Source of the DNA: Nereocystis luetkeana
Lineage: Eukaryota; Sar; Phaeophyceae; Laminariales; Laminariaceae
Length of the DNA: 64,000 nucleotides
Reading direction: 5' to 3'
NCBI GenBank assembly: GCA_031213475.1
Contig: JARUPZ010000025.1
Span: forward strand, 5,777,676 to 5,841,675
The notes under the pieces are model-generated. The model had not been told where the DNA came from. It ran no database searches and saw only the letters and a list, made by a program, of their open reading frames with translations. Position numbers and translations under genes: made by a program. Below are positions 3,108 through 52,560 of this stretch, in pieces (positions within the stretch are counted from its first letter, which is position 1; every line of letters begins with the position of its first letter).

Positions 3108-3200
3108 CCGTTCTCGCCTACGTATAACTTGCGGTATTACCGTTCTCGCCTACGTATAACTTGCGGTATTACCGTTCTCGCCTACGTATAACTTGCGGTA
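3108..3200. repeat. Three-copy 32-bp tandem repeat
   Basis: CCGTTCTCGCCTACGTATAA begins each copy, at 3108, 3140 and 3172. The copies are identical over the full 32-bp period except where the last runs into unique sequence (GTAAGTC). Near-identity suggests recent slippage or duplication. Confidence 0.9.
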
Positions 3201-26025: not shown

Positions 26026-26169
26026 TTAGCAATGGGCGATCCCTAAGAAGGCTTTCCCGCTGCATTTACGCTCAGCGATGTGGAAAGAGCCGTCGGGCTT
26101 GATCTTGATGGTCTCGCCTGAGAAGAGTCGGAAGTGGTATCCGTTGCGTTCTGGAAAACCCGCCACCTC
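26026..26169 (-). CDS. VHPO exon 14: C-terminus and stop
   Basis: The acceptor is AACGTTCGCAG|GAG, phase 0. EVAGFPERNGYHFRLFSGET then IKIKPDGSF and a short Cys-containing tail ending IAHC before TAA. Family members end with a comparable Phe-rich ...F-DGT-x-I strand; the last 15-18 residues here are an extension. Confidence 0.9.
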   Translation of the reverse strand, partial: EVAGFPERNGYHFRLFSGETIKIKPDGSFHIAERKCSGKAFLGIAHC

Positions 26170-29100
26170 CTGCGAACGTTGTGGGAATCGAACATACAAT
26201 AAGTAAGAATCCAAGAACGCTACTACAAGCCGCCCTCTACAAAGAAAACGCACTATCAATTTGAAACCGCCCGGTACATTCACCCTCTTAGCCCGCCGAG
26301 CAAAACGCCTTCTCACATCTGTAAGTTACCGTGCGCTTCACTATTGCATGTCGCGTGACCTCTCAAATTTTAAAGCGTTCAGAGTAAGTATCAAAATCTC
26401 AACAAATGTTGGGTAGAAATCACTCGATGGATAGTTTTCATAATTTTGAAAATTTGCAGATTGACAGGTCAAATCATCCAACCATACGGTCATATAACCC
26501 AAGGAAAATAGTGAGCACCACCTATTTGGATGCCGTAAGCAACGTACCTGGCAACTCCAAACTAGAAGTACCGCAAACGTGTTGTTTTTCGCGGTAGTGC
26601 GGGGTCGTCGAAAGCGGTAAGGGTGCGAAAGTAAAATGGCTGGATTTTCAGGAAGGGCTTAAGATCAGCCCAATCCGATAACACATATTTTAGGGGTAGA
26701 AAATTGTCCGTTCTGGACAAATCAGGCACTCGAACCCGACCGCACCTCTCTGCGAACGCAGCGTCCTTCACGGTTCGACGGTATATTGGGGATACCCCCT
26801 AGGCCCTCACCCTTCCCTTAGCAAAGGCAACAACACAGTATTCTCCGAAACTTTGCTAACGCAAACCTCACAGAATACCTCCGCCGTAAGGAAAACGCTG
26901 TCCGTTCCAAAGGCATAAGGGGGCGTACGCAAGCCGTCGCGTTTACACGAAGGTACCCGCTAACCCACTTCATCGATGCCGCATCCTCTACTTCTTAGTA
27001 CAACTCTCGCCACGTAGTCCACCTAACCGCTTGCGTTTCGTGCCACGGCTAGCGCGAAGAACGCGTGATCGACCACAAGCGCTCGATCTGCGTTTCAATT
27101 TTGTGAAAAAAAACTCGAGAGTTTTGTTGCATGTGCGAGTATGTACCTGTTGCAGCATTCGCACGCTGATGACCTCCCCCATCATCAGACCTTCTTCGCT
27201 GTCCATCCTGTAGTGAGCTCCGCACATTTGCCTTTAACACGGGGTGCAGAAAATAGGATATGTGATCACGAACGCTACAATTGGCTCAAGTGACTCGCCT
27301 GTCCCAGGTCAGATGTAGCCGCGGTAGCAGTAGAAACAGTAAAAGTGGGAGCGGTACACTGGCTGCAATAGCTGTATAGGTGGATAGTTTGAGGTTAGTG
27401 TGTACGCTTGTTTTCTTCCGTTGTTTAGGTCGATCCTGTTGTTGCTCTCCGCTTTCAATAACGATAGTGTTTTCAGTCCTTGGTGCGATCGTTGCTGACG
27501 TCCATTGCTGGTTTTCTAAAGCACCTCGTCACGAAAGAAACGTATCCATGATCATACCACAGCGTCCGAACCCAGTGGAAGGGAAGAAAACTCCGTTCAC
27601 TACGGGAAAACGCAGGATCGTACGGCGTCACGTACATGTACGTGCAGATATCGATAGGGCTCGCTGGGGCGGTCAAAGCCACGTCCCCGGCGGGTTAGTG
27701 TACCCTACCTGCCGACGGCGACGTTGAACGCCATCTTGTTGATTTCTCCCTCGTACGTCAGGCAGTCTTTGCCGGTGTAGGGCAGGAGGGTCAACCCGTC
27801 ACCGTCAGGGAACACTGGGTCGTTGAAGCACTCTGACCCCCGTTCCAGGCCAACCATGGCCTGTGATCGACGACATCGACGATGGGGTTGCGGCGGTATG
27901 CGGACGAACCAATATTTGGGAAAAGGGGGAATGTCCTAAAGAAGTGATTCCCACGAGGCGTGCGCCGGTCGACGCGTCCCACTCTCTCCCCGCGGTAACG
28001 GTTGCACGTTGTGTTTCCTTCTGAAAAACACATGTCTGACAGATTGGGCTCGAGTGAGCGTCTTTCAGTATACCGGATGCTACAATACATCTACTGAGAT
28101 ATTTGTTTTAGGCCTAGTGGTTGTGGATGTTGATCGTGTAGCGCGAACCAAAGTTCCCTGACGTCATGATGGGGGGGAGATATTGCGCTCCTCATACCAG
28201 GACTCGAGACGATGCACCCCTAACGGCATTGCTCGATAGAGATCAGCACCCATCGAACTGTTTCCGACCTTCCTCAGAGGCGTTCTACGACATAGGTTCG
28301 CTCAATTATTTCGGAGACTCCTCACTTGAGGAGCTCCCCACCTCACCCGAACTGACTTCAGCAAGAATCAAATTGCAACCCGATGAAGAATCCCAGGACC
28401 TCAGTACACCTTGACGTCATTTTTCGAAAATGCTTGGCATTCCTATGTTTTCGGGTTTAGGAGCTTTGTCATTATGAAAACAGTTTAGGGGATATGTGTT
28501 ACCTCTATCGTAGAACGCGTCCTAGATCCATTCCTTGCCCCAAGTGGATTTTGACACAGTACAACGGTTCAGTCCAATAGCCGATGCCAAGCCTCAACAA
28601 TCGCTCAAACACAAGTGGAATATCGGGTAGTTCATCGCCTGAGGAGCGCCGTCAACCCAATAGATAGTTCGCCGAAGCGTGCCCCCTCTATCGTGGTACG
28701 CGTTTGGAGCTGGTTCCTTGTGGTGCGCCGGCCCTCGGTTGCCGTTGCACGAACGACTAAAGCATGTCCTTGCCAGAAACGATGGTGTTTTTTAAGACTA
28801 GTAACCGCGCGGCTCGTCTTCAGGGCATACGTATAAATACATGTGTGTGACATATTAAGCATCAAACGTTCAGGGACAAACAGTTCCGATTGCGTACGGT
28901 GACATTTGCAGAAAACTTACTTCGTCTCCGACTTTTAGCACGTGCGTACACGTTACAACACAAACTATATATCTCCTAAAACCCGGGCGGTTGGGCGTCT
29001 TAGGCGGAACGCCCTTCTGTCACCTTCCAACATCGTCTCTCCACTTCCGGGAGAAACGGCCAATCAATGGCGTTATGTTGAGACCGCGAAGAAGAGCACG

Positions 29101-32100
29101 TTCTTGAAACGTCTCATCGATGTACAGCTTGTTTATTGTAGTGGCTAGCTAACTGAATATTCGGCCCAACGCGTCCGTGCCGACCGACGAGGTTGCTTGC
29201 TCCAATCGAGGTAGCTCATCATTTTTTCTGAGGCTCTTCACACGGGGAGCTCTATATATCACCCACGCAATGGCCGTACCAAACATGTACGGTTATTCTG
29301 ATGAGACGTCTCATCGCCTAGGAGGATTACTGGACATTGTAAAGCAAACGATAGTGAGGAAATAAAGTTTGAATAATTTAGCCTCTTCACTCAAACCGGT
29401 CGCCGTCGAAATGCCGCTCGTACCCGGCGTCTTTTTCACGCGCCGTCATTACGTACTCGCGGTGGCCATACATACGCACAGAGTATCGGTTTCTTCCCGG
29501 CAGATGTACCCGCAGTAACAATCAAGACTACAGACGCGTTCTACGGTAGAGGTATTAATAGCACATTTCCACCAATACGTTTTTTTCTGAATGACGGGGT
29601 TCCTCAACCCAGAATCGTCGGAATGCCAATCTTTTTTCGAAAACGAAGGTTTTGGCGTACTCGGGCCATGGAATTATTCATCGGGAAAACATTGGGTTTT
29701 ACTGAGTTCAGGTTTCCGGTTAGGGCAAGAGCTAACCAAAGGAGGAGCCGCAGGAAGTTCGGGGTGAAACTCTATCGTAGAAAGCCTCTACAGTCAACCA
29801 GGTATGCCGTGACGTACCGTAGCAAATACAGCACGTCACGGTGAGAGAAGAATGTCAGAGCGGATTCGTCAGTGCTTCTCTTTGTGTGCACGTTTGCTAC
29901 ACGATATTGGTTGCTTATGGGATTGCCCCAATCACTGGGACCCGAACGCTTCCCCCCAAAAACAATACGTCTGTTGAGAACGGAACCAAAGAGGTGGTTC
30001 GTCCGGTGAAGAGGTATCCTGAGAAAGCATATGGTGGCTGGTATGATCTATACGCAATGAAAGGATCAATACCTTGAGGACCGTGGCGAAGGCACCGTTC
30101 TGCACGGCGTGCCCCGCTGGGTAGGACGGATGTGTTGGCGACCCCCCCCTAGTAGACTGTCAAGTCGGAACACGAACAAATAACGGTGATGGAGCACGGT
30201 TCGGTCGCAACAACGTTGGGCGGATCAGGCCCACGTCATGTCAAGAAACAAAATCGAGGAGTTACCGCCAGTCTGACCCCGCTGTATGTGATGCCAACAT
30301 TTTGTTTTCGGTTATACAAGCATCTCTAAACTGCGGCATTGCCCTCTTTTTCCGACGGGGGCGTCTCACGTAGCGGTTGGTCTAAGGCATATGCTGCGGT
30401 CGGCGCCAAGTTTGCTTTCTTTCACTATCCCGTCAACGTTTGGCTCGTGATAGGCTACTCCGTACGCAACGAGGTTCGCGCCGCCCCTGCCAGCATACCA
30501 GATCGTCACTGGTACCAGAGTGCGGAAACCACTCGACCAGGCGATATTCGACGATACATTTGTATTAAGGTATGGTAGGATTTGGTGGTCAGCACGACAT
30601 AGGGTTGGCACGATCCCTCACCCGCTCGGGAAAACCACGGACGAGCGTCAGGTACAAACGTCGGTCAACGTTGAGGAAACGGATGCCTTGAGGTGACGAT
30701 ATGATTACGACGGGCTCAACGTGCGGCGTTGGAAAGACGGTCGGCAGTTTAACGTGCACAACGTGTGTATGCATTAGATACCTGCGACAGCAGGTAAGTG
30801 CGCCCGCTTCCATCTTTCCCTTGATTGATATCTTCGTTTCGTGCCGCCACACGTTCCAACAATTCCGAGTTGTTGATAAGGGACTGGTGGAAGGGTTGGT
30901 GGAGGTCGCCGTTGAGAACGTTGTGCAGCGTGCCTGCAACTGCCTGTCGTGATCGGGACAAGAGAAGGCAAGGCGAGGCGAGGCAAGGCAAGGCAAGGCA
31001 GGGCATGGCAAGACAGGGCAAGGCAAGGCAAGGCAAGGCAAGGCAAGGCAAGGCAAGGCATGGCAAGACAAGGCAAGGCAAGGCAAGGCAAGGCAAGGCA
31101 AGGCAAGGCAAGGCAAGGCAAGGCAAGGCAAGGCAAGGCAAGGCAAGGCAAGGCAAGGCAAGGCAAGGCAAGGCAAGGCAAGGCAAGGCAAGGCAAGGCA
31201 AGGCAAGGCAAGGCAAGGCAAGGCAAGGCAAGGCAAGGCAAGGAAAGGTAAGTCAAGGAAAGGTAAGGCAAGGCAAGGCAAGGCAAGGCAGGACAACGAA
31301 GAGCAAAGCAGGGGAGAAAAAGACAAGCGTGCATGGGGATCGTATTGTCGCGGGGTGCGTTTAGTCTACTGTTAGAGTTTAGAAACAAAAGACCACCGCC
31401 TGTACACCGTGTGAACATTGCGCAAGGTTTATGAGACATCGTTTTCGGGATTATTTATAGGGGTTCATTGTGCAGTAGATACCTGACACTAGACTAGGGG
31501 GGGTGCGAATGCCGTATTCATCCCACGACGAAATTGAACGGCGCTCCGACAGCGAGAAAGGGGGAGGGGGAGTGGAAGGGCAAGAGCGCTGACATTGTGC
31601 CCCCAAAAAGGATTGTCAAAGAGGGAAGGCGCTGGACAAGGACGAGCAGGGTAGTTGATACCTGCTAGTTCGAGCGACAGGACAAATATTACATCTCACG
31701 ACTCCAAACCAACTTTGTAACACTGTTGCTCTCCATGGTAAATTGACAGGGCTGAGGTACGCGGGCAACGCCGACTTAAGCGGAGTCAAGGAAATCTCAG
31801 AACCCAACCAAACGCTAGCCTCCTCTTTTTCGCTGCCTTGACGAACATCCTCGCCGTGTTTTGCTTGCGGAATATCGTAAACCTATGATCAAAAACAAAA
31901 ACAAAAACGAACAATTACTGTTTTTACGATGTGTAAGAAGAAGTGAGCAATCTTGGATAAACTTGAGCTCAAACCTAAACCTAAACGGTGCTGACCGTAG
32001 GCCGAATGGTTATACTAACAAACAAGTTTCAGTCTGGATCACATTGAAAGTGAACGAAGGCCAGCACTATGTGTGCTCCTACTGTAGTATCACCATTACC

Positions 32101-35100
32101 CCCCATAGATTTTGTTCTATGAAGGCTTAGGATACCACGATTACGACAAACAAATTTCAGGTCTTCGCTCATTTCTTCCCTCGACCGCTCAAGGACTTAA
32201 GGTGTTCAAGCCAATCCTGGTCTTTCCGTACGTACAACCATGGTTGACAACAATTCTCAACCGATGCGTGGTTTGCCCTGGTGTTTTTTTTATGTAGCGA
32301 CTTCGGTGTAGCGTAAGTCAAACGTTTGCAGTTGTTTTCGAGGACCCGAGTTGTAAAGTGCAGGCTTTTTCCGGGAACCAACTGGTAGCATGACAAGCCC
32401 ATATACGACATAAAAAATGAAAAGGACTGAGATCCGAAACAATCGAGAAAAACCATACGGAATTCGATGTCGTTCATATGCCCTTGCTCTTCTGGCGCGG
32501 CCTTTGTCTCTCCCCCTTTCCCTATCTGCGTCCTGTTGATTGACAGTGAACGGATCAGAGCTAGTCACCTCCGGGCGCGCGAACAAGTGCACGTTCCACT
32601 TCTGGTACCACGAGGACCTCTGGGCCAACTCCGCGCTTCCGAGAATCTTCATGACGTGAGACACACCGAACGAGACGAAACCCTTCTGGCGGTAGCTGTC
32701 GGCGTACGGCCCGTTGAAACCCGCCTTGCTGATGGCTCCCTCCTCCAAGAGCACCAAGGCTCCTCGGAACGCCTCCCTGCGACGCACGACGGTGGGCCCC
32801 GTGGCGACTGAAATTGGGTATCGCTGTGTCAAAACTCAGAATGATATGAGTGTGTATGGCCAGAAGGCGAGTCACCTGATATGTTAATGTGGCATGCGGC
32901 AGTAATTGGTTCGTATCGATAGTTCAATGCGTTGTTCGTTCAGCTTAGGCTTAGTCATCAACGCAAACGAAATATACTCAAGTCGAGGTAGCGGGAATAT
33001 GGTGCGACGGAAGAATTGCGCCCCGATGACAAGACTTACCCCCCCGAAACGCCCCGGGAGCTACACACGATATGGGGGCTCACAAACGTCGATATTTACT
33101 GCTCGGAAACTCCAAAACCGAACACCACTACGAAATATCGTAAGTCTTTCGCGGGCGTAGGAGCGGCACCCATGTAACTAGCAACACATCGGTTGCCGCG
33201 GTCATGTAGTGCTTCACCCTCAATGCCACTATGAGAATGCGTAGAAAGACAAATATCACAATTCAGGGAAGATTCCAAGTAGTAACGAATCCAGTGTTTA
33301 TATATATAATAGGCATTTTTCTATAACGTGAGGGCGAGATATCAAAACGCTAAATGAAGACGGATGAGACGTGGGAATGGTGGATAAGCCCTCTTGCCGA
33401 TACTAATGCGGCCAAGTCCCGGGAAGGAGTTGGATTCTACACCTTTTGATGACCACGGCGGGCCCACAGACGTGGAAACTGAAAATGGTGGTTGATATAT
33501 TTTGACTTACAAAAGGCGTTAACGTCAGGACCCTTACGTGTAGATGGTGTCGCTAGTAACCAGCCTTCCCAGGTCGCGGGCGCTGCGGATGTACCTCTTC
33601 ACAGGATCAACCAACTCCGGTGTGTGATGGTCGCCGCCGTTCTAAAGAAGGGGAGAGGGCAGTTTGTTTATGAAAAAAGAAAGTGAGTCGTATTTTCGCC
33701 ACTTTCGCGTACGCGGCAAGAGCTTACCACGAGGAAATTAAGGCCCTCTCGAGTTGTTTAGGATTATTTTTGCTTGAGATTGTTTCATTGCACAAGCACA
33801 ACTCAAATGTTGTGACTCGTGTTATCCAGACATGGCACGCTCTCAGTATTCGCGAAATGCCCCGGTATCGGAGGTTTCTCTACTTGCTGAGCAAATCACA
33901 TAGGGACTTCACTTACTCACATAGAATATGACTCCAATAAAGTTGTAGGCGACAAACCTAACCGCGATAGAAAAAAAGATAGATAGATAGATAGACAGAT
34001 GGATGGATGGATAGATAGATAGATAGATGGATAGATAGATAGTTAGATAGATAGATAGATAGATAAAAGAATAGATAGATAGATAGATATATAGATAGAT
34101 ATATAGATAGATAGATAGATAGATAGATATATAGATAGATAAATAGATTGATAGGTGTGCGCTACTCGTACTGTCGTCTTGAAACCAAACTTGTACTAGA
34201 GTTCAAGCATCATTTTAGCCTGTATACTTCTAGTAGCCCACATGAGAAACTTAGCCGGTTGTAGACATTTGCCCAGAATCGCGCAACCCTAACTGTCGGA
34301 TGATTGCCCCTGACAAAATCGTTTTGAAACGAATAGAGATAATAGGGAAACAAGTCCAACTCGCGGTGCTAAGGGTCGTCGCTGACCGGCAACGGAAACA
34401 AAAATTCACTTCATTTGGGATGATTCAAGCCACCCCACGGTAGGGGTTACACCTTTTGTCCCTAAGGTGTTTGACCAAGTGAGTTCTTCAAGTAGTGAGG
34501 AACTACCATTTAGGATGAACATTTTTACTCGTATGCTCGATTTAAAACTAGCCCATACAAGTGCCGGTCGGGTGGCACAACCGAACTTCTTCCAAGTATT
34601 GTATCGGGTGAGATATCAAGCTCCTAATGTGAGTTGCTCAGGACGTCTGGAGCACCCCTACTGTACGATGGCTCATTCGTTAAAACGATAAGACTGAATG
34701 ATCCGTGGCGACAACCTTGTTTTGGTACCGACCTACACTATGATATGTCTCGGCTCGTGATATTGCCGAGGATTTGGCTTCATCGCGATTCGTGATAGCT
34801 TCGTTGGCGAAGAAAAAACGGCCCTCAACCTCTTTTGGACTGTGCTCCCGTTTCTAGTTCAATTCACGCCAAGGTGCAATTGTACAATGGTGGACCCTTT
34901 CAGTGAGGCATCCTACGATGGGTATCTACCACGGACAATTCCGAAGGTCCTCGCATGAGGAGCCCCCAACCCTGCCCAAAACCAGATCTCAAGGCACATC
35001 CGGAAAGCTGAACCCCGTGCATTATCCCATCCCTCCGGATTTCACAAAACATATTGCGGACAAAAATGACTTTCCCGGCGATCATAGGTAGTTGCCTTGT

Positions 35101-38100
35101 TCGACTAAGTCCCGGCTGTCAGCGCTGTTTCTCCCCTAAACGACTACCCCTATGGCAGCACGCGTCTTGGGGATGATGACGACAGTAAAACGGGGTAATG
35201 ACTAGGATGAAATCACAAAGGCATGCACATACAAGGCTACGCATGGGCGTGGTGCTCCGGGAAGGAGAGAAAGGATTACAAGGGTCACATTTGGCACAAT
35301 ATTGTCAAATGTACTTGGAGCCGGCCTGGGAGTTTCTAAACGATTTGCCGTTGATTACAAAGTAGGCGGCGGATGGTAACCGTAGTATCGGAATTGAACA
35401 TAGGTGGCATGCCAACGAATATCTCATCGTAAATCCCACACTTCAATGGTACCAGCACCCCCAAAGGTCTGGTGCAGGAGCAAATGTTTCCGAAACTGTT
35501 ACGGCTGCTATCTGGACTCCCCGGTCAGATACTAGTTGGCTGTCGAAACCACCCAAACCAACTAACTAAAGTTGACTGGTCGGTAGGACATACGTTTCTA
35601 GAACTCACCGACCAACAGCAATGTACCAAATAGCTCATCGGCTTTCGGCACGCCAACGGGGCCCCGGCGCTATCTATATCGATATGTTTATATATCGAAT
35701 GAATTTCGGTTTACCTCTCGTCCTTTCCCTCCTCTCAGAGCGAGCACCGCAGGCGTAAAGTCGGGCCCCAGTGGTGCGTTCTGCGATATATGTTCACCCT
35801 AAAAATTGTGAGGCTCCTCACCTAAGGAGCTCCATACCTCACCCCAAAACTTACTTCAGCAAAAAACAAAGTGCATCCTGGCGAATAATCCCATGGCCCG
35901 AGTCTAGAAAACGTTTTGTTTCGAAATCAAGATTGCCATTCCGACGAGTTAGGCTCAAGGAACCCCTCTTGCATAAACAAAATAGCGGAAACGTGCTACC
36001 TCTATATAGTAGAACGGGTCCCGTGGCAACGAATACATTCCGCTTACAAGAAAACCCAAGCAGTGGGACAGCTGTCAGGCGCCGACCCATTCGGTGGGCA
36101 ATCGCTTGACGTTATTGGTTCCAGGGGGCCGTGAAGAAAGCCACAAGGTGTATGTTGACACGCACAGTTGGGAGGTCAGGTACGTGAAGTGGCAACACAA
36201 GCAAACGTGGGTAACAGGGTGTCTATCCTCCCTTGAGTACGTGTGGTGTCGGGTGTTGACAACCAGGGCAGGACGCCCAGCTAGCCTTCGGACCCAAGGA
36301 AGCATATCAATGCTCGGCTAACTTACACCTGCACGATTACTCGTTTCAAGAGTTCGTGGTAACGCCTCCGATGATGTGCTTAAATAACGTTCAATTATAC
36401 AAAATACAGGTAGGTATAGAACGCATGCTGGAGCAAGGGCACAAGCGACCGGGGCGTAGCTCGCTACTTTGCGTGAAACCGACTGCAAAAAAAGCGCGAA
36501 CGGCCGACCCAAGGAGGTTCATGAGTAGTATGCCCCCCACGCCAAAACTTTGGGAAAATTCTCAACCCGCTACTCCATCCCACGGTAGGGGTGTACCAGA
36601 CGTTCCTGAGCCCCTCACAACAGGAGCTCGATATATCACAAGATCCAGTACTTGAAAGAAAGTTGTTCGCGCCCCCCGATCGGCACTTCTATGCGCTGGT
36701 CCTAAAACGAATAGACGAGTAAATTTTTCATCCCAACTGCTGGTTCCTCACTTATGGAACTCAGTCCGTCAGAAACCATCGACCCAAAACGTGCAACCCC
36801 TACCGTGGGGCTAGTAACTCTACTACTATACTCCCCTGGACGGGGTCCGTACCATTCCGAATCAGTTGAAAGGTAAGCAAGGAAAAATAAATACCACATG
36901 GATAGGTCAGGCCCTAGTATCCGGCACCGCTGTGATAGGCTCGAGTTTCGAAGCATACTTAGTTGCGGACTTTTAGTCATACAACCCACATCCCTACAAA
37001 AGATAGGTTTAGTAGCTCTGCCCAAGAAATACATTTCTTTTTTTGCTATTTTCTAAGACTTAAGTAAGGCTGCGCTTGGAACTGCCAACTAACTGTTGTT
37101 ACGTCAATCGTACGCAGAGCAATGACGACAAAAAACAACACTCGACGATTGGAAACGTTTCCGTTGGCGAGTGCACGCTGTCTTGTCTGTCCAAAACGTT
37201 TTGGGGCATGTCGGTGCATTCACGTACAAGCCCTGATACGCAAAAAACGTTTTTGTCACTGCGTACCCCCACTGGTGAAGCTTTACGTCAGAGTACCTTG
37301 GGCCGGCCTGTATTTGGTCTACGTACATATATATATGTAGGGAGATATATTTTCACGTGCGTGGCAATGTGGCGCAATAATTTCATGAAACAAACGGCAC
37401 CAACAATGTTTTCATTTTTTGAGAATGTATCATCCGAGCTCGTCACACAACTGTCATATGCCGGCCCGCTCCTACCGATACACGCAATGTTATATATCCT
37501 CGTTTGTACGTACTTAGTCTTACAAAAAATAACATATTTTCACTTGTAAAAGCGTGCTCCAACTGTGAGTTCATTATTCACCAAATAAATATCAAAATAT
37601 TGTGGTCAAATATTCACATTTTCACCTTTGTATTGCAGAGATTTCTTGTCCAAAATGACAACGTGAACCCTCTCACGCGAACAACATCCTCCTTGTGGGT
37701 CATGGAGTCATGGACCTATTTTGATAAAACGGCCCTATACTTACCCCCTGAGTACTGCAGGTTCGTCCTGGAACCCGTTCTACGATAGAGGTAGCACATT
37801 TCCGCTATTTTGTTTCTGAAAGACGGGGTTCTTTGGTCCCAAATTGTCGGAATGCCAATCTTCATTTCGAAAAGAAAACGTTTAGTAGGTTCGGGCCATG
37901 GGAGGTTTCGCCGCGATGCATTTTGATTTTTGCTGAAGTCAGTTTTCGGGTGAGGTATTGAGCTCCTTAAGCGAGGAGCCGCGGAAAATGTAGGGTGAAT
38001 CTCTATCGTAAAACCCACTCATGACCTACAAAACTTACCTCCAAAACAGGGCGATAATCATAAACGGGATAACGATACGGGAAGGGGTAGTCCCTGTCCC

Positions 38101-39484: not shown

Positions 39485-39517
<33 letters not shown>

Positions 39518-42500: not shown

Positions 42501-45500
42501 CCTTAACCCAAAGTCGTCGGAACGCCAACCTTGTTTCGAGAAATTGCGTTTTTGTATCCTGGCGCCAAGGAATTATCCATCGGGATGCAATCTGAAATTC
42601 AGCTGAGAGTCAGTTTTTGGGTGAGGTAAGGAGCTCCCTGAGTGAGGAGCCTCTGAAAATTCAAGATGAACCTTCGTAGAATGCCTCCCATTGCCCGCCA
42701 GGGTGACGATAGCTTAGCCCACGCTTCGACCAAGGTGAACTCTGGAGACCGTTCACCTCGTTGGCTGGCCAGGCTGCTCAGGTGAAGACCCACACGCTAG
42801 CGGTGGACCCCACGCAACGAGCAATGTCCCAGAACCAGTGGTAGCTTTAGTTTGGAGCTATAAACTTGGAGGAGCGCGGAGTTTCAACCGAAGCAAGACT
42901 CATAATTAAGCTTTTCGCGCAACGCGAGCACACAATATTGACGCTAGTCTTCAAACGGATCCAATACCCATACAGCAGTAAACAACCAGGATCTCCACCG
43001 GTAGCTCATTCTACGCGGTAGTTGATGACATGAGGAAGCTCCACCGGTCAAACGAGAATGGGCCACGCCACAAAACGGTGCCCATGCCGTAGCATGGCTT
43101 ACGTGGACCACTCCGGCTGGAAACAGGGGAGCTTCCAGTCGTCATCTTGATGTTCAAACGATCCTTGCCGTTGCGCTCATGTCCGTAGGTATTGGATGGC
43201 CTCGTTACGTATAGGAATGCTCCCGTGATTTCGGAAGGGAGCATACTTGTATCCGTATCTTGGACAAAAACCGTTGGTTACGTTTATGATGCACAGAGCT
43301 CCGCAAGCGAGGAGCAACATACACAACAGGGTGTGACGGCCAGCAGTGTAAAATAAATTGGAGACCAATGCGACACGAAACTATTTCTCTCCGATTCTCC
43401 AGGTAGCGCGGGGGGGGGGAGGGGGGGAGGGGGGGTGGGGGGGGGCGGGGGTACTCGATTTATTTGCATGGCCGTGGTCGTATGACCAAACAGGAGACCG
43501 GCTGGGGTAGAAAACCGAACTAAACACAAAGTTGAAAACACACGTACGTCGTGCCATTTTACATTTTCTTGCGGAATTTTTGATAATTCTGGTTTGGTTC
43601 GTAGGCTGACGTAGGGAAGAAGTGCATGTTGGTTCCCTCGGTTTCATGTACTCTAGGATATACCCAACGTACTCCTGTAGCATGCGTGGGCATACCTGCA
43701 GCGGCGATTGTGGTTTCGTCTTGCCCGTACTTGGAGAAATGCACGTCCCGCGTCAAGGCCATCCAGTACAGTTCCGCCATTTGAGCAGCCTTCGAGTCTC
43801 AGCAAGTTGGATTGATTCGGTTCGAAGAGTGCGCGATTCGTATATTGGTGGCGGATTTGGGCATCGTATTATCAAAAAGAGCAATTAATTATGTCATCTA
43901 CGCTAACGATTCTAAGTAGTAGTTCGATAAACGTGGTCACGAGTACATCGGCTGCAATAACGACCGGTTCTTAAGACGGTATGGCCGGGTGAAGCAATAA
44001 ACAATAGTGTGGGTGGTATCATGTGTGAGTCGAAATATACGGTTTTCTGGGAGTGAATGTTGGCATAGGCACTTGAGAAACAATGTATAAACAAAGTCCG
44101 CTGCGACGTTGATATCCTCCCCCAAACCCTTCTTGGCAAATATCACATACCCCAAACAGAAACCGACCGACGTAAACGAAGGTACTTTCTGCACGATAAA
44201 CATCGACATTGCCTGATATTGTGACGCATATACCACGCGTTGGTCGAAATAGGGGATGATCAAGCAAGTGCTGGAGGTACATGCCTATGCTTGTGTAAGT
44301 TTCGGTGTTTCACGCCGAGAGTGCTATGACATCTTTCATACACGTCGGGATGCCTCGGAGTACTTAGCTACACTTGCTGTAGTATATTTTCGGCTGTATG
44401 ACTGTGAGAGCTGGTCTGTGACCAGGGTTGCTGAAAATCGGAGAGTGCTTAGTAGTTTGGACACGGCGGTACTTGGAGTACCGTGAACGTTAGAGCATGT
44501 ATGTGCTGCTCCAGTTCAGTGGCAACATGCCCAATACCTGGCATGCTGCTACAACCCATAGTGCATGCGAACAACCCGCACTTGTGCCGGCCACCCGCCG
44601 TCAACCTGCCAGGGCTACGTACGTCCACAAATAAGACGCTAATAATAATGAAATCGAGCTTTGATGGTTGAAAAGCCACTATATGAACACCTGAGAAAAG
44701 GCAGCCGCACTATATATTATCGGATCAGCGCGTAGCTGGATGCTCCGTTGCGAAGACCTCGCCATACGATGAAATGGTTATGAAGTATAACAGTTTTTAT
44801 GTATGCCTTCGGTACGTAAAGTAAAAACAAGAACGGACATAAATGTCTTTGGTCAACAACCACTGCAAGAACACCGCCGATGAAACTGCTGAAAAACAAC
44901 GTCACGGTCAACGCGATGACGGGCGACGAGTACATCGTCAGGGAGACGTCGGCAGGCCACATGATCATGTGAAGATGCCATTTCGCTTTGAGGGGCTAAA
45001 CCGCCGATAAAACGTATATCGACGAGTAAGTGGGTCGTCAACAAACCCGTCCACAACAATCCGAAACAATGAAAAATAACAAAAACCAAAAAAAACTATC
45101 GAGCCAACGACGTAGTTGGAACAGGAGAGGGACCGCAATCAAACAAGTTCCATGCTGTCACTGGCCTACGACACGACTAGCCCCCGATGAGCGAGGACAC
45201 TTTTAACTCGCGGGACGCCCTATTCCCCCATTACCTGACACAAAATACGGTTTCATACATTCAACCCCAGGCACAGGTGTACCGCGAGAACATTTCGTAA
45301 AACTGAAAGGTACGTCGAGGCCGGTGGGAACGTTATCCGTCGGCTTCGGAGCCTTGTCAGTCAAAGTAGCCTGGGGTAGGTATGCCTCGAATAACATTGT
45401 AAAGGTGTGAATGCCATGTCATCGGTTGCGAGAAGTTTGCCCCTATCAGGTTAGGAGCCCGGTCAGTCCGAAACGAATATTATTAAGCGGGGCAAAAAAA

Positions 45501-48500
45501 GTGCTACCGGCCTCTTTAGCAGGACGCGCCCGATACATGTATGAAAATATATTTGTGTCAGGCAACGAACGGGGGAATAAGTCGTCGATCCACGGCAGAT
45601 CATTATCTCGCATTCGTAATCGACTCACCAGATCCTCAGAGTCCAGTAATGGTGCGGGTGGGACTGTCAAGGCGCAGCTGACGTCGAATCAAAGAAGGAG
45701 CGCAGAGCCATATATGCCGGCGAAAACGTAAACAACACGAAACACGTTAGTCGACCGACAGGGCCGTCATCACGGATGCGATGGCTTGCTGACAAGATGC
45801 ATATTCACCGCCGACCGTGGTAGCTGTGCACGACAGGAGGATTTGCCGACCGCTGGGTATGCGAGGGATGTGTCAAAAGGATTCGTGCTGTGAAAAAAAG
45901 GCAACTTTTATCTGAAACAGTTTTTGGTTGGCGGGGTCATCCTGAACCCAAATGCATCGGGCTTTAAAATAATTTTCTTTCTTTGCAGGAATCCTTCCAC
46001 TTTATGAGCTTAGGCCATGGGATTGAGCGTCGGATATCACCTACGCTTTCCTCCAAAACCAGATTGCAGTTTTGTGTGAGGTACGGGGCTCTTTATGCCA
46101 TGAGTTCTTCGACAAGATCAGGTGTACCTCCAAAGTGGCGTGCGTCAGACGTACAGGTCGCGTGCTGTCAGAGGGGTACCTTATGTGTGAACCACGCTGG
46201 AGGCGTATTTACGACAGGGGTAGCATTTGTTTCACCCAAACATGTCTGGTTGACCGCGTTCGGAATAAACAAGTGTCGAAAATATACCTGGTCTGTTATT
46301 CGTCACAGATCTACGAGTAGGCATCCTGAACCGTGGAACAAGCTACCTGTCTGAGCCTGCACCGTTGGTAGACGGAAGCCTCTACAGCAATCGATTAGTT
46401 GGGTCAGTGTGAACGAAACAGTCTACACCTCTGAAGCACACGGCATGCGTTCTACGATAAAGGTACGAACATTCTCGCCGACATGTTTTTTAATTACGGG
46501 GCCCCTTAAACCTTTTAGAACCGCAGTCCCGGTTTGGGGACAAACCCCTCAAATTCCATGTAATTTGTCCCCAAAACGGTACTGCGGTCCTAAAAGGGAT
46601 AAGCAATATCCGTCGGAACGCCAATATTGTTTCGACAAAGGGCGCTTTGGTACACTTGGTCCATGGGACTATTCATCGGGATGTAATTTGATTTTGGCCG
46701 ACGTCAGTTTTCGGGTGCGATGTGGAGCTCCTGAAGTACGGAGCCTCATGAAAAAAAGTCACGTGAACTTCAACCGTGGAACGCCTCACAACAACCAATA
46801 ATGGGTATTCACCACGAACTCGAGACAATAATTCAGGTTCGCCTAGCTACGGTGAAGAACGTATCGTATATCCTCCTTCCTGACGCGGTATCGACTGTAC
46901 GAACGGTTTCTCTCCCAACGCACTCAATGCCCATGCTCATATATACAAATACACGGACTTGATATTTGTCTGCCGTATTTTGCGACCAGACACGGTCGCG
47001 AGAACTCTACTCAACATAGAGCGAGAACACGAGATCCGCACCAGTTCAGGCAGTGGAAATTTAGATGCTGAGTCGATTGTTTCGCAAATGCATCCGTTTG
47101 GTATGTCGTCCAACACGCTTATCGGGGAGCTCGAATTCTGTGGGTAGGAGGGTTGAGACGCGGTTTGATGGAACGTATCAGGTATGTCGATCGTCCCCTG
47201 TTCAAAACGACTTGTGGGGAAACGTAAAGCCAACGTGCTGGAAACCCCATGCTGTGAGCGGCACCTTCACGACATAAGTGATACGGGAAGGAAAGTCCTG
47301 GCGTTTCCATCTCGAACTGATACCCTTCGAGCCGTGCTAAGATACGGGCTGCTTGTGTTCCAGCCCAAACATGTACCACTCTCGGACTCCTGAAGTCAGG
47401 AGAGCTACCCGACATCGATGTTTCGGATGGAACAATCACCAGGTTCACAATGTTGTTCGTTGGGTACGTAACCCATGGGAATGTATATCTCGGACTCGGC
47501 GAATAATGCCCCCCGCAACCAATATTTGAGTGGGGCATTAAGCCACTGAAGTAAAAACCGCAGGGACGATTTTGCGCTACCCCTGCCATACGTCGCCTGT
47601 CGGGGGTTGGGGACCTTCAGACATAGAAGCGTGGCGCATGATCGCGCGGTGGTATGGTACCTGGCGGGTCCGGCCATGTCGACGGCGATTCCCCCGATGG
47701 GTTGGCTCAGGAAGCCATCCTTGTCGCCGGCGGGCACCTTCTCGCACGTGGCAACGCTGCCTTCAGCGACGCACGCTATGAGGGCCTTAAAGGCCTCTTC
47801 GTCCACCTGAGATTTTTGCGTGGGGGGCGCCGCGTCGATAAACAAGGAGAATGTCACAGTGCACACCCCATCTGGCTACGCCTAGTACTTGCCAAAATTC
47901 GGAGTATCAGCTCACAACCAAAAACGTGAGCTTGTGGGGTACGCGTATCGTCGTCGTGTATATTGGGTAGAACCTATCTATGTTCACCAGTTTTTATTCG
48001 TCTTTTTTCCCCAGTTTCATCTGATGCGCTTGCTTCAGTCATGTTTACTGTTCTTCTTATACGCCACCTCTCCGTAATATGTATGTATTGGCGCACACGT
48101 GCGCTGTTTTCACTTGTATATATGGTGTCTTGTTAGAGGGGTACGATATGCTTCAAGTCTGACGCCTATTGTGCCTGCTCGATATTTTTCCTCCGAGTCA
48201 TTCTCTCATTCCTGTGTTTCTAAGCGTTTCCTGTGGTCCTGACATAGCGTGTTAACCGTCGATTTGTGTAGGGGGCAACAAGGATAGCAGCCCCAATCGC
48301 GATCAGCCGGCGACGCCAACGGCAAAAATGGAAATGCTACTGACTATCAACCATCACATCGTAGATAGATGGACATCACGAAACGCGATACACACTTCTT
48401 CTGTAAATCCGAAGTACAATAGCCACAACCGACGCCTCACGCAACTTGCGGCGGCGAGTTCTACCTACTCAATGCGTAGTACTTACAGCCAGCTGTTAAA

Positions 48501-51500
48501 GAGGTTCGTTTAACATACGTTCTCCGCCGATTGAGTAAGATGAGCATGGGGTGTAGTATCGTGCGCTTGAGTCCCATACCGATGCAGTACGCCGTCCGCA
48601 AGATTCCATCCGACTTTCGTCCGAACATGAGGCATTTACGACCTGACGATACCCCATCTTCTACTGGGGGCTTTGTCCTGCTCACACTTGGTCTGAGAAG
48701 AATCAGTACCAGTGGTCGGTGGCAGGGTGTGTGGATTTCCTTCAACCCGGCCACTACGTTTTTGTGGATCAGTACATGAGTCTTCCTTACCACGTCGCCA
48801 GTTTAATCAGCTACGGTTCCGCGAAGACACTGACAGTGCCTTTATACATAACTCTGCTGGTCTGAGAGGTTTAGGATTCCCACCTGGTTTGAGGAGGGTG
48901 TGTTAAATATAAAAATAAGAACGTTCTTCCATGATTCTCATAGGCCGCATGATGTATGGATTTTTCACGGTACTCACATACCTGGCATCTTACATTTGAC
49001 GCAAAGCTGGTGCGCGGGTTCTCATAATGTTCCGCATTCCACGAGGTATCACCATATCCAAACGCTCGCAATGAATAGTAAGAGGTCAAAAGCGGCAAAA
49101 CCCGTCCAACTATCGAGAGGTACGTTTTTGTTGCTCTTTCAGGAAACATTTTTGACTGACAGGGCTCCCTATATTCTTGAGCTTTGTTGGAGTGCAGCCC
49201 CGTTCTTGGCACAAACTACTCAAATTCTGAGTGTTTTGAACCGAAAAAAGGACTGCAGTCCGACAAGGGTTAGATAAGGTGCTGCCCAAAATCGTGAAAA
49301 TGGCATTATCATGGTTGGACATCGCCATCGGGCTGTGTTCCTAAGACATGCTGCCGGTGGTTTTGTCAAGTCCACCCTGCTACTGATAAGGCGACGGAGA
49401 AGCCCCGCTGCATCCGTCTCACAGCAGTAGTGGCGGTGGCACCTGCTACGAGAATTTCGGTTGGACCCATGTCAGGTTGGTGCAGCTTTTTCGTTTTCAA
49501 ACTGTGCCGAATTTCGAGGTGACCAAGGAAGCACAAAACGACGGTGCGTACGTGCACAAAGGGTTCAAGGGTTGCACCGACAAGCCTACCGTACAGCGAC
49601 GCTGACCCTGGCCTCGTGTGTCGTTGTGCTGCTGCTCCTGCTGCTGCTCCTGCTGCTGCCGCTGCTATGTGCTGCAGGTGGGTACTGCTGAGAACGATTT
49701 CAATATTTTAAAAAAAAACTCTAACGGGACGCATACGCAAATATTTCGTTCGAATTGGTTCCCGTTCCATCCGTGTTATCCCCGCATGATGCATCGCAGA
49801 TTAGGACTGAAGGTACTGACACCCCTCCCCATTATCACCAAACGCTCGCAGACATATGTATTGCATATCGACGCAAAGGTGTTAAAATCTAGCTTTTCTT
49901 GTTTCCAGTTTGTTTGGTGAAACAGAGGGCTCCAGACAAGGAGTTCCCAACACGCGACTGTAGAGGCTAGCCTCATCGTGGCATGCTTCACAAGCGGTTA
50001 TGAGGATGAAGCAGTTCGACAATAGCAAGTAGGCTGCAGACAAACTGGGGCGATCTTACCTGGCCGTACTTGTCGTGCGGCAGCGTCTTGTGGAAGGAAG
50101 CCGCCGAGGAGCGGTCGCCGTTGTTCAAGTGTCGCGTTCCCTTCGAAGCGTCGTACTCGATTTGAGCCCAGTCTAGCCTCTGCTTCAGCACCTTCTTAGC
50201 CCTGCTCAATGGCTGCGCACCACACGCATGGATTTCCGAGGAGATGGGGAAGACGGAAAATGAATTTCGCAGAAAAAAACGAGTTCCTCGATAAACAACC
50301 CCAGCACGCTGGTTCTTGCTTGCGGAGAGCTTATCATGGTCTGAGAAAGAGCAAAGAGTCGGTATCGTGAGGCTAGTTATAGCTGGAATGTGAGGATACT
50401 GGCCGTCGCATACATTAAGTAAGGTTTATCTCGGATCGATAAGCTGATGCACCTAGAGCTTGAATGTTCTTCCCAAATCAGCACAGGCCCAACATTTTCG
50501 CTAAGGCCTAAACACAAAGGGTCCGAGGTGAGTCTAGTCAGATGGAGTGGGAGTCACTGGTCCCAGTCATCTGTCAGGAGCAGTAACTTCCGCCATTGAA
50601 TACCATGAATATAAAAACAACCACATCCCCCTCCCCCACACTTGATCGAACATAGTATATGCGAAACAACGCATTGAGCGCCCACATATTGGAGGTGTTC
50701 GTACTATGATATGAATGGGAGACGTTCTCCGTCGGGGATGTGCGGTCGGGGAACAGAAACGTTCGCCATTGCATGCCATCAACAATGAGCTAGCGCATTC
50801 CTCTTCCCTACTCTTGATTAAATATAAAAAATGGGAAACAAGTATTGAGAGCTCAAATATTGAAGATGTTCGTACCATGAATGGGAGACGTTGTCCTTCG
50901 AGGAAGTGCCGTCGAGTGGAAATGTGTCTCAAGAAAATCAACTAAAGAGCACGTGCTCCTTTCGTTTATTTCTGCCGAGACTGTCCATTTTAATAGCGTG
51001 CGCTCCAGGAGCGAATAACCCCCACTGTCCCTTCTCAAGTATCGATTCCCCCATTTCGGAGTGTAGCCCCACGAGAAGGAGTTCACAGGACAAAACGGCA
51101 AGTAGCCTTTGCCCTGCTCCGGCGGGATACTCCCCGACCCCCCGCCGTGCCCGCTGCCCAAAGCCCGCACTCGGGAAGGGCCGGCGAAGAGGGGGGGGTT
51201 CGACACTTATTATATGCTTCAATGGGGGTAGCATACGATATCAAACATTTCTTGAAGCGACGGGGGCTCTTCGAGTGAGCATGATATTGTGGAATGCAGA
51301 GTTTGCGATGCCGAGGGAAACAATACCCATCGACAACTCTCCTCAACTAGGATGCCAAACAAGTGCCCCCCCCCCTCCTGATCGCAAAACATAGGCGTAA
51401 GCATCTTCTTGTAGAGCCGTAGAACAGTGCACACCATTCGCGTGTGTAAATAGAGCGGTTGTCGGCACCTTACGAGGTGGGTCACATTGTTCAATGTCTC

Positions 51501-52560
51501 CACAATATTGTTGACGGTAACATTTTTTAAAGGAGTGGTCCTCGCCACCTGTGTACCCAATCATCAACCACTTCTCAACTGGACGAGTTGCTTCACAACA
51601 TGACTGTAAACACTCACGCGATGGATGTCTAGACCATCGGATTGTTCATCAAGGTGAGTTTAGTTGTATTTTTGTCATACATTGTTGTTGGGTGGAGTAC
51701 AGAGGTCCTTAAGGTAGATAACGTGGAGACCAACACACATTGAGCGCTGCCCCTACCGAGGCCCTTCTCTTAAGAAAGCTCGCAAGAGTTTCCGAGTACG
51801 AACTATTTGTGCCACACAGCGTGACCAATGGTGGGTTGCGCACTTACAGTAGGCCATTGGACACTTTGTAGTGTCCGATGGTATTGTTTCTGATACAGAA
51901 ATAGTGAGGGTGCCCAAATATTACGTAAACCCCGACTGCGTCGTTCGCCCGAGTACGACCTAACGCTGGTGCTTGGGTGTGGTAATGTTGCTCCTGGGGC
52001 GACGCGTTCTACGATAGAGCTCTGAGGTAGCACATTCCCGTTATTTGATTTCTGGATGACGGGGCTTCTTAACCCAAAATCGTCGCAATGTCAATCTTGT
52101 TTCGAAAAAGACGTGGTTGCATATTTGAGACTATTGATTATCCGCCATCGCGATGCAATTTGATTTTTGCCGAAGTCGGTTTTCGGGTGAGGTATGGAGC
52201 TCTTCAAGTGAGGAGCCTCAGAAAAATTGAGGTGACCCTCTATCGTAGAATGCCTCGGGCGAACAGGTTATCCAAATTAATTTACACTACTGAGGTAGAT
52301 CCCCTACACTGGTAAAGGTAACTCACGCCGCCATTGACGTCAATAGCATCGTCGGTGATAGCAGCCTGATGGTCGCCTGTGCGCAGACCTCGCGATGAAG
52401 AAGCGTCTACGGTATCTCCAACCGGTGACCCTGGCTCATCTAGGCCGGAACTCTGGTCGCTTCCCGTCGTCCCCAGTCGCATTGCCCGCCCATTTGCTCC
52501 AGGTTGGAGTCCGAGGGCGATCATGGCAGCAACACGAACGTAGTTGGCAGGTCCTTTCAT
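26026..52560 (-). CDS. Vanadium-dependent haloperoxidase (VHPO), giant multi-exon gene
   Basis: Family enzymes use vanadate to oxidise halide with H2O2, giving hypohalous-acid chemistry. Thirteen exons on the minus strand (listed separately) give about 560 residues. One further segment between exons 9 and 11 is only tentatively placed and would bring it to about 615, close to algal bromoperoxidases. The order matches the family: N-terminal ASFHKTLPHDKYG; AELYWMALTRDV; LFRSTAVGVETGPMVSQ; DYMADYDDWLFIQ then NGGD; KRYIRSARDLG; WYQKWNVHLFARPE; SPTHPSYPAGHA; EINKMAFNVAVGR; MCGAHYRMDSEEG. The vanadate ligands are present: Lys and Arg eight apart in exon 9, His in PAGHA, Arg and the covalent His six apart (R-QMCGA-H). 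A signal peptide predicts secretion. Introns range from 115 nt to 5.5 kb and hold most repeats of the window. Halide preference (Br, I or Cl) cannot be read from sequence. The gene looks intact, with no in-frame stop or frameshift in any exon. Confidence 0.92.
27147..27231 (-). CDS. VHPO exon 13: vanadate-coordinating histidine
   Basis: The acceptor is CGTGTTAAAG|G and the donor CAACAG|GTACAT. QMCGAHYRMDSEEGLMMGE then VISVRMLQQ. The His follows the split Arg by six residues, as for the covalently bonding His of the family (R-x-x-x-G-x-H-Y-x-SD). Confidence 0.95.
27709..27860 (-). CDS. VHPO exon 12
   Basis: The acceptor is CGATCACAG|GCC and the donor GGCAG|GTAGGG. It contains ECFNDPVFPDGDGLTLLPY then EGEINKMAFNVAVG plus two bases of Arg. 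The GE-[IL]-NK-x-A-x-N-x-A-x-GR signature precedes the catalytic His. The split Arg is the third conserved vanadate-binding side chain. Confidence 0.95.
28277..28521 (-). mobile_element. Family B element (reverse orientation)
   Basis: Ends GAGGCGTTCTACGACATAGG and CCTCTATCGTAGAACGCGTC. The internal palindrome CTCCTCACTTGAGGAGCTCC is complete. In the VHPO intron between exons 11 and 12. Confidence 0.85.
29533..29788 (+). mobile_element. Family B element (forward)
   Basis: Ends GACGCGTTCTACGGTAGAGG and CTCTATCGTAGAAAGCCTC. Same VHPO intron as the copy at 28277-28521, in the opposite orientation. A shorter relic lies at about 29200-29290. Confidence 0.8.
30073..30156 (-). CDS. VHPO exon 11: GHA histidine
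   Basis: The acceptor is GTTCCGACTTGACAG|TCT and the donor CTCAAG|GTATTG. It encodes GGSPTHPSYPAGHAVQNG and AFATVLK. The His of PAGHA is the conserved active-site acid-base/ligand-shell histidine. The residue two before it is Ala, where several algal and fungal enzymes have Ser. The 5' boundary is uncertain because of the preceding run of eight Gs. Confidence 0.92.
30622..30781 (-). CDS. VHPO exon 10: candidate linking segment
   Basis: Between ARPE and SPTHPSYPAGHA homologues have about 40-55 residues ending in a LLPMAF-[PA]-EG-like motif. This frame encodes VHVKLPTVFPTP and ends RRLYLTLVRGFPER at a GTGAGG donor in phase 0, as exon 11 requires. The acceptor used (CTGTCGCAG|G) needs two bases from an upstream exon, while exon 9 ends in phase 0. 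A further tiny exon carrying the usual A-x-GG would therefore be required. Tentative. Confidence 0.4.
30961..31292. repeat. (AGGCA)n pentanucleotide satellite
   Basis: About 330 bp of AGGCA units (TGCCT on the other strand) with a few CATGGCA, GGCGA and GGTAA variants near its ends. It lies in the VHPO intron region between exon 9 and candidate exon 10. Because 5 and 3 share no factor, all frames stay open, giving spurious ARQGK and LPCLA repeat frames on both strands. Confidence 0.97.
32569..32776 (-). CDS. VHPO exon 9: Lys/Arg vanadate ligands
   Basis: The acceptor is GCGTCGCAG|G and the donor CCGGAG|GTGACT. It contains EAFRGALVLLEEGA, KGFVSFGVSHVMKIL and SSWYQKWNVHLFARPE. The Lys of YQKW and the Arg of ARPE are eight residues apart, as are the Lys and Arg vanadate ligands of red-algal bromoperoxidases. 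An acceptor 31 nt upstream is tempting but gives the wrong phase with exon 8. Confidence 0.95.
33538..33641 (-). CDS. VHPO exon 8
   Basis: The acceptor is CCTTCTTTAG|AAC and the donor TACAC|GTAAGG. NGGDHHTPELVDPVKRYIRS then ARDLGRLVTSDTIY. NG directly after WLFIQ and the R-Y-I-R-S-x-RDL block are both family features. Separated from exon 7 by the largest intron (5521 nt). Confidence 0.93.
33978..34154. repeat. (GATA)n microsatellite
   Basis: About 175 bp of GATA units interrupted by GGAT, ATAT and single-base variants, in the large VHPO intron between exons 7 and 8. Confidence 0.97.
35774..36021 (-). mobile_element. Family B element (reverse orientation)
   Basis: Eroded ends TGCGTTCTGCGATATATG and CCTCTATATAGTAGAACGGG. 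Internal GAGGCTCCTCACCTAAGGAG and CTTACTTCAGCAAAAAAC are kept. In the VHPO intron between exons 7 and 8. Confidence 0.75.
37771..38020 (+). mobile_element. Family B element (forward)
   Basis: From CCCGTTCTACGATAGAGGTA to ATCTCTATCGTAAAACCCAC, with internal TCAGTTTTCGGGTGAGGTAT and GAGGAGCC. In the VHPO intron between exons 7 and 8. Confidence 0.85.
38300..38410. mobile_element. Family C inverted-repeat element, intact
   Basis: Starts CTATTACGGGGGACCATAGT and ends with the exact inverse complement (ACTATGGTCCCCCGTAATAG). The arms extend to about 30 bp with only two mismatches around the TTAATAGGACC/GGTCCTGTTAA junction. The 50-bp interior is A/T-rich. Too small to code; presumably mobilised in trans. 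Confidence 0.85.
39163..39273 (-). CDS. VHPO exon 7
   Basis: The acceptor is CTGCTGCTGCCAG|CTC and the donor ATACAG|GTTTGA. It encodes LLVRDVTFDSITV and APGADYMADYDDWLFIQ, equivalent to the GxDfMtD...WL..Q block of the family. Phase 0 at both ends. Confidence 0.93.
39485..39512. repeat. (TA)n microsatellite
   Basis: Fourteen uninterrupted TA/AT dinucleotides in the stretch between VHPO exons 6 and 7. Confidence 0.95.
40359..40492 (-). CDS. VHPO exon 6
   Basis: The acceptor is CGACCGACAG|AC and the donor TCACAG|GTGCGC. It encodes NLASMAGFKNMRG and TQLFRSTAVGVETGPMVSQ. Homologues read LFRG-x-x-x-G-x-x-x-GP-[YF]-[VI]-SQ here. Phases fit exons 5 and 7 exactly. Confidence 0.93.
42016..42137. mobile_element. 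Family C inverted-repeat element, diverged
   Basis: CTAATACGGGGGACAATAGG to GGTCCTGTTAGCTATGATCC and CACGTAATA. It shares GTGTACATAAAAA and CAATATTTGGTCCTGTTA with the copy at 38300-38410, but the arms carry several mismatches. Confidence 0.8.
42442..42688 (+). mobile_element. Family B element (forward)
   Basis: GAGGCGTTCTACGATAGAGG to CTTCGTAGAATGCCTCC. Internal GACGGGGCTCCTTAACCCAA and GAGGAGCCTCTGAAAATTCA match the family. In the VHPO intron between exons 5 and 6. Confidence 0.85.
43408..43451 (+). repeat. G-rich tract
   Basis: Runs of 5-9 guanines separated by single A, T or C bases, about 44 nt, in the VHPO intron between exons 5 and 6. On the gene's transcript it is C-rich, so any quadruplex would form on the non-template DNA strand for plus-strand reading, not in the pre-mRNA. 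Confidence 0.85.
43696..43797 (-). CDS. VHPO exon 5
   Basis: The acceptor is AACTTGCTGAG|AC and the donor GCTGCAG|GTATGC. It contains SKAAQMAELYWMALTRDVHF, a diagnostic family block (AE-x-Y-x-MAL-x-R-[DE]), then SKYGQDETTIAAA. The 5' boundary depends on the micro-exon; an alternative acceptor lies 8 nt downstream. Confidence 0.92.
45893..46130 (+). mobile_element. Family B relic
   Basis: No clean ends remain. The order GGCGGGGTCATCCTGAACCC, AATGCATCGG, GGCCATGGGATTGAG and TTGTGTGAGGTACGGGGCTC follows the family interior. In the VHPO intron between exons 4 and 5. Confidence 0.5.
46444..46788 (+). mobile_element. Family B element interrupted by a family A element
   Basis: Left end TGCGTTCTACGATAAAGGTA, right end CGTGGAACGCCTC. 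The left half stops at TAATTACGGGGCCCCTTAAA and the right half resumes at ATCCGTCGGAACGCCAATAT, a break exactly filled by a family A copy. Without that insert the element is the usual 250 bp. Confidence 0.8.
46506..46602. mobile_element. Family A element nested in family B
   Basis: TTAAACCTTTTAGAACCGCA to TGCGGTCCTAAAAGGGATAA. The host family B consensus has CCTTAA at this spot, so insertion was into a TTAA, the target the family's own ends predict. Confidence 0.85.
47520..47545 (-). CDS. VHPO exon 4: candidate 26-nt micro-exon
   Basis: The acceptor TTTTTACTTCAG|T is strong; the donor ATTG|GTTGCG is non-consensus. It adds S-GLMPHSNI-D between GPA and SKAAQMAEL, where homologues have a short Met-Pro-Pro-rich segment. 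Its phases (2 in, 1 out) are exactly those required to join exons 3 and 5. The upstream intron is only 115 nt. Supported by phase and position, not by strong motif identity. Confidence 0.5.
47661..47806 (-). CDS. VHPO exon 3
   Basis: The acceptor is AAATCTCAG|GTG and the donor CCAG|GTACCA. It reads VDEEAFKALIACVAEGS, directly continuing LPHDKYGQ as in homologues, and ends at IGGIAVDMAGPA, equivalent to the family's ...FDLEG.. turn. Exit phase 2. Two cysteines. Confidence 0.9.
49122..49314 (+). mobile_element. Family B relic interrupted by a family A element
   Basis: GAGAGGTACGTTTTTGTTGC, GACAGGGCTCCCTATATTCT and, beyond the insert, GCCCAAAATCGTGAAAATGG correspond to consecutive parts of family B. 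In the VHPO intron between exons 2 and 3. Confidence 0.55.
49182..49274. mobile_element. Family A element, second nested copy
   Basis: GAGTGCAGCCCCGTTCTTGG and the inverse arm AAAGGACTGCAGTCC with GGGTTAGATAA. Moderately diverged. It breaks the family B relic at the position used by the copy at 46506. Confidence 0.65.
49627..49670 (+). repeat. (CTG)n-like triplet repeat
   Basis: GCTGCTGCTCCTGCTGCTGC and onward, an imperfect CTG/CTC/CCG run in the VHPO intron between exons 2 and 3. The open frame across it reads poly-Leu/Cys and is not regarded as a gene. Confidence 0.85.
50060..50212 (-). CDS. VHPO exon 2
   Basis: The acceptor is GTGCGCAG|CCA (phase 0, matching exon 1) and the donor GGCCAG|GTAAGA. 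It contains LSRAKKVLKQRLDWAQIEYD and NNGDRSSAASFHKTLPHDKYG. The NGD...ASF-x-K-x-LPHD block is an N-terminal hallmark of algal and bacterial vanadium haloperoxidases. Confidence 0.92.
52001..52256 (+). mobile_element. Family B element (forward)
   Basis: GACGCGTTCTACGATAGAGC to CCTCTATCGTAGAATGCCTC, with the complete interior including GGTGAGGTATGGAGCTCTTC and AAGTGAGGAGCCTCAGAAAA. In VHPO intron 1. Confidence 0.9.
52327..52560 (-). CDS. VHPO exon 1: start codon and signal peptide
   Basis: ATG begins MKGPANYVRVAAMIALGL, with basic residues then a hydrophobic core and a likely cleavage near GANG-RA. A Ser/Gly/Asp-rich propeptide-like segment follows. The donor is GGC|GTGAGT, phase 0. The frame is open slightly further upstream but has no further ATG before 52584, so this start is preferred. 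Confidence 0.75.

Follow-up and report, generated by a model that had tools for sequence, protein, structure and literature searches.

The question raised by this locus is whether a complete vanadium-dependent haloperoxidase (VHPO) gene lies hidden among repeat-bearing introns, as an earlier note had proposed, and whether such a gene is intact. The window, by which we mean the whole 64,000-nucleotide stretch analyzed here, corresponds to C25:5777676–5841675 of the 465-Mb Nereocystis luetkeana genome. Family blocks were found in the expected order in the minus-strand reading frames, and joining 14 coding exons from an ATG at 52560 to a stop codon ending at 26026 gave a protein of 619 amino acids with no internal stop. 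The span proposed earlier, which lies at C25:5803701–5830235, and the strand were exact, while the exon number had to be raised from 13 to 14. All 13 introns were of the GT–AG type and every junction was in phase, so that the previous wording of "nearly all" junctions as phase-compatible was too cautious. The coding sequence comprised 1860 nt including the stop codon, and introns of 477 to 5521 nt occupied 24,675 nt of the 26,535-nt span; the bulk of the locus is indeed intronic, although the exact fraction is 93.0% and not about 94%.

The first model, with junctions set by AG/GT, phase, and the expected family order, comprised 13 exons and 537 amino acids without an internal stop; the final 14-exon model was obtained after comparison with paralogues. 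Exon 1 (52327–52560; this and all following exons are on the minus strand) encodes 78 amino acids with the start codon and a signal-like hydrophobic N terminus and is followed by the donor GTGAGT. It was settled because six of the seven paralogues that we fetched (5591, 4850, 4537, 4621, 4344, and 5693) have a comparable exon upstream of exon 2, also signal-like and with DDALDxN at its end. Exon 2 (50060–50212) is bounded by AG/CCA and CAG/GTAAGA, and its acceptor position is common to all seven fetched paralogues. Exon 4, a 49-nt microexon (45629–45677) with AG/GT edges in all seven, was located using an 18-residue hint (score of 40, versus 20 for the next separate candidate); GTGAGT was chosen from three tied donors by phase and consensus. 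The splice model further placed exon 3 (47661–47806), exon 5 (43696–43789), exon 6 (40359–40492), exon 7 (39163–39273), and exon 14 with the stop codon (26026–26169), and exon 8 (33538–33641) was located with motifs as hints. Exon 9 (32569–32776) contains Lys401 and Arg409 of the vanadate site, and exon 10 (30782–30943) starts about 20 bases past a CCTTG array. Exon 11 (30073–30156) encodes HPSYPAGHA, with His474, Ala479, Gly480, and His481; its start is atypical: it reads STRGG next to eight consecutive G, and the seven relatives that were fetched show AVxEG or AVASG at this point. Exon 12 (27709–27860) ends inside the Arg544 codon, and exon 13 (27147–27231) contains His550.

We then compared the 537-residue model with known haloperoxidases. 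A phmmer search aligned residues 11–537 with residues 29–555 of Ascophyllum nodosum vanadium bromoperoxidase I (AnI; chain 1QI9) at an E value of 1.7e-193, with 291 of 523 aligned residues (56%) identical, and the similarity to VHPOs expected of the spliced protein thus extended over nearly its full length. A. nodosum bromoperoxidase II (5AA6) was also homologous along the length when the model was used as one query, but was more distant (E 3.5e-116), and further haloperoxidase chains (1QHB, 1UP8, 5LPC, and relatives) gave E values of 3e-60 to 7e-46. The exon 9 open frame alone matched 1QI9 with an E value of 9.8e-26; NCBIfam returned no family for this frame. The Pfam PAP2 family (PF01569) aligned with residues 384–489 of the 537-residue model below its gathering cut-off (21.2 versus 27.2 bits, E 0.00025). 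Judged from its sequence, the window gene is an AnI-type algal vanadium-dependent haloperoxidase and a new member of an already known gene family.

The alignment with 1QI9, whose chain positions supplied the AnI numbering, placed Lys401, Arg409, His474, Gly480, His481, Arg544, and His550 at AnI Lys341, Arg349, His411, Gly417, His418, Arg480, and His486, respectively. We take these AnI residues, together with Ser416, to form the vanadate site, in which His486 presumably bonds the vanadium and Ser416 contacts the vanadate. The two proteins are alike in the Lys, Arg, Gly, His, Arg, His, and catalytic-His positions and in a Trp three residues ahead of the Lys; they differ at Ser416, where the window gene has Ala479. 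The earlier note had listed a Lys and an Arg eight residues apart in exon 9, an Arg and a His six apart across exons 12 and 13, and the His in PAGHA, and all of these were found: Lys401 and Arg409, Arg544 (its codon split at the junction) and His550, and His481 in exon 11. Its statement that all vanadate ligands are present holds for six of the seven contact positions, to which the His411 equivalent can be added, but not for the Ser416 contact. We did not count that contact as family-defining because it is one of seven and because Ala occurs in 12 other exact-motif places of the genome; if it were counted, the window gene would have to be called haloperoxidase-like.

A genome search with the exon 9 frame found at least 93 places, a lower bound that may include duplicate assembly on some small contigs. 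At least 51 of them, at 92.9 bits or more, were AnI-like: 46 on C25 between 4.20 and 5.81 Mb (window gene included), four on C4, and one on C17. The others comprised two weak matches on C25 and 40 matches of 35–56 bits on C22, C11, and small contigs, and, on visual inspection, one frame each from C22 and C11 resembled the AnII type (5AA6). Of the 46 C25 places, the window gene lies at the highest coordinate and is the outermost member of a family that, from the layout of these places, was most likely built by tandem duplication. In the core array at C25:4761000–5480000, exon 9 copies lie mostly 16–25 kb apart on both strands, with several identical exon 9 scores, which looks like recent tandem amplification. 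A divergent relative at C4:4165100–4166300 has a 317-residue open stretch in the fetched piece, in which sequences resembling exons 9 and 10 are joined, next to low-complexity repeats.

The seven fetched relatives were picked mostly as the best exon 9 matches, so they were not drawn at random from the 51 AnI-like places. Six of them, representing five distinct genes, were complete: every one of the 14 exon parts was present, the phases were those of the window gene, and no internal stop occurred; C25_4621 and 4537 are near-identical copies (99.8% at the protein level). The six complete spans were 14.9, 8.8, 16.9, 16.9, 21.4, and 10.4 kb, with intron fractions of 0.79–0.91. C25_5591 lacks intron 12, which brings the Arg/His vanadate motif into one exon and points to an intron loss (or a gain elsewhere) within the family, and three paralogues (4537, 4621, and 4344) have a GC rather than a GT donor after exon 13. 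For C4_4207, 10 of 14 exons were found, and the distance from exon 2 to exon 12 is longer than in the window gene; neither exon 1 nor, in the interval from exon 2 to exon 4, exon 3 was found, and exons 13 and 14 did not fall within the 30 kb fetched. C4_4207 may be a larger relative or, since exon 3 was not found, a damaged one. The description of the window gene as unusually intron-inflated was rejected, as all six relatives from this genome with complete models, with spans of 8.8–21.4 kb, share its exon–intron plan, one intron loss apart.

We counted the two residue types at the Ser416 position in the family using exact exon 11 motifs; variant motifs fall outside these counts. The Ala type was found at 13 places (two on C4, one on C17, and 10 on C25), including the intact window gene, and the Ser type at 34 (one on C4 and 33 on C25); a backward control of the motif gave no match for either type. 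On C25, the Ala places lie at 4.20–4.62 and 5.59–5.81 Mb, while 32 of the 33 Ser places lie at 4.76–5.48 Mb and one at 4.31 Mb; among exact-motif places, the core array at C25:4761000–5480000 holds the Ser type only. When a protein tree was rooted on 1QI9, the seven Ala genes retrieved (window gene and partial C4_4207 included) separated from the single Ser gene retrieved, with a support of 85. With a single Ser gene and an outgroup branch as long as 0.91, the tree has little power to test whether the switch occurred once. Inner-node support among distinct genes in this tree was 30 to 91, and the unrooted DNA tree of the branch model described below had a different inner order. We tentatively suggest, as a possibility that we favor less than its opposite, that the AnI-type family is split between a Ser-type set largely in the tight C25 core and an Ala-type group on the array flanks, C4, and C17, which may have lost one vanadate hydrogen bond, perhaps once, and may since have been maintained by selection with a different halide preference or rate.

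Another reading is that haloperoxidase activity has been lost or changed in the Ala-type group, including the window gene, in favor of another vanadate or phosphate job. The presence of Ala instead of the vanadate-contacting Ser at 13 of the 47 exact-motif places and the separation of the fetched Ala genes from the Ser gene (support of 85) agree with such a change, but the remaining six contact positions are conserved, as is the His411 equivalent, and we regard this reading as unlikely. The determinants of halide specificity are described as largely unknown in the available part of PMC13198595. The literature searched yielded no Ser-to-Ala change at a Ser416-type position, although one may exist in print; the word alanine is absent from the main text of PMC13198595, and the available parts of PMC11871015, PMC10427571, and PMC11433219 contain nothing on such a change.

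Selection on the window gene was examined using NG86 and our own codon model; C25_4621 and the partial C4_4207 were left out of these tests and of the count of unique departures. Pairwise NG86 omega was 0.22–0.28 between the window gene and five paralogues, and 0.16–0.29 among those five (ten pairs). In the branch model, which covered six genes and the 534 codons kept after removal of exon 1 and gapped columns, omega was 0.181 on the window branch and 0.147 in the background. The two values did not depart significantly from one common omega (2dlnL 0.80); neutrality of the window branch (omega = 1) was rejected (2dlnL 34.5). Among the other single branches, 5591 (2dlnL 4.8) and 4850 (5.0) were higher than the rest and 4344 (7.9) was lower. 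Residue departures unique to the window gene were found at 17 of 605 aligned columns, compared with 10–31 for the other five genes. These results indicate, at the level of codon comparison, that the window-gene lineage is under purifying selection; a strongly relaxed constraint on this copy was rejected.

The same tests bear on whether the window gene is a recently silenced pseudogene whose frame is still unbroken and whose intron growth marks lost expression. Its atypical exon 11 start and its length, the greatest of the complete genes modelled (26.5 kb versus 8.8–21.4 kb), would fit such a history. Against this, all 26 splice-site dinucleotides and all 619 codons are intact, and the terminal-branch omega of 0.18 was measured over about 0.5 substitutions per codon with neutrality rejected, which leaves room for a very recent loss alone and makes the pseudogene explanation highly improbable. 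The further idea that the exons are chance matches or come from several genes, the joined protein being an artefact of homology-guided picking, draws on the initial picking of exons by eye and on the sequence and motif hints used for exons 4 and 8, but paralogues show the same exon order, strand, phase, and boundaries and one single alignment spans 1QI9 29–555, so that we give it practically no weight.

Together, the 619-residue frame, the 1QI9 homology, and the purifying selection bear out the earlier proposal of a complete VHPO within repeat-bearing introns. The window gene is very probably an intact, constrained nuclear brown-algal gene of 14 exons for a putatively secreted vanadium-dependent haloperoxidase resembling A. 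nodosum VBPO I in type. Its primary transcript would be spliced from these exons into the mRNA of an enzyme that is predicted to be secreted and to act probably outside the cell. There, His550 would bind vanadate together with a pocket formed by Lys401, Arg409, Gly480, His481, and Arg544, and hydrogen peroxide would be used to oxidise iodide and/or bromide.

The intronic repeats noted earlier are real. A (CCTTG)n tandem array lies in intron 9 (30965–31290) and a (GATA)n array in intron 7 (33966–34154), and repeat finding combined with a genome search identified an intronic copy of a genome-wide dispersed repeat (251 bp, 37768–38018), for which all 40 scored places matched (40 scored of 2969 first-look candidates). 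Further copies or parts of this element were detected by repeat finding near 28270–28525, 29605–29782, 35774–36005, 42446–42673, 46600–46778, and 52012–52253. The introns may have grown by insertion of such dispersed repeats and simple arrays. Perfect short tandem duplications were also observed at 53114–53208 (47 bp × 2) and 3107–3200 (32 bp × 2.9) of the window.

In the rest of the window, eight of the other listed open reading frames of 150 amino acids or more had no Pfam match, and the Rfam and tRNA scans were empty. An open frame with a Ser/Thr/Asp-rich stretch on the plus strand (16057–16578), also without a Pfam match, is possibly an exon of an unrelated protein.

Published work on kelps, as far as the available parts of the papers show, contains close parallels. 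For Saccharina japonica, 88 V-HPO genes are reported, most of them clustered on LG3, LG4, and LG21 close to transposable elements (PMC11765636). Large clusters in this species are the subject of both PMC11765636 and PMC4421812, with LG3 described as tandemly duplicated 58 times. Such large tandem arrays with many transposable elements nearby resemble the family of the window gene. In Saccharina latissima, AnI-related vHPO transcripts were found, and eight proteins were identified by MS in an active protein band (PMC13198595); by their description, these are AnI-related kelp enzymes like that of the window gene. Since kelp V-HPO clusters, transcripts, and proteins have been published (PMC11765636 and PMC13198595), the window gene belongs to a known kind. 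The words intron and exon are absent from the main text of PMC11765636, and neither a V-HPO exon structure nor a Ser/Ala split was found in the available parts of PMC11765636 and PMC4421812.

The biology of the window gene looks ordinary for this lineage; what makes it interesting is the exact gene model and the Ser/Ala split. ORF scans would break this gene into pieces; the analysis gives its exact structure in 14 exons and assigns it to a very large haloperoxidase family, of a type that the available part of PMC4421812 links to iodine accumulation in kelps. The conserved Ala group is worth following, and the Ser/Ala division points to one defined residue whose role in halide specificity could be tested.
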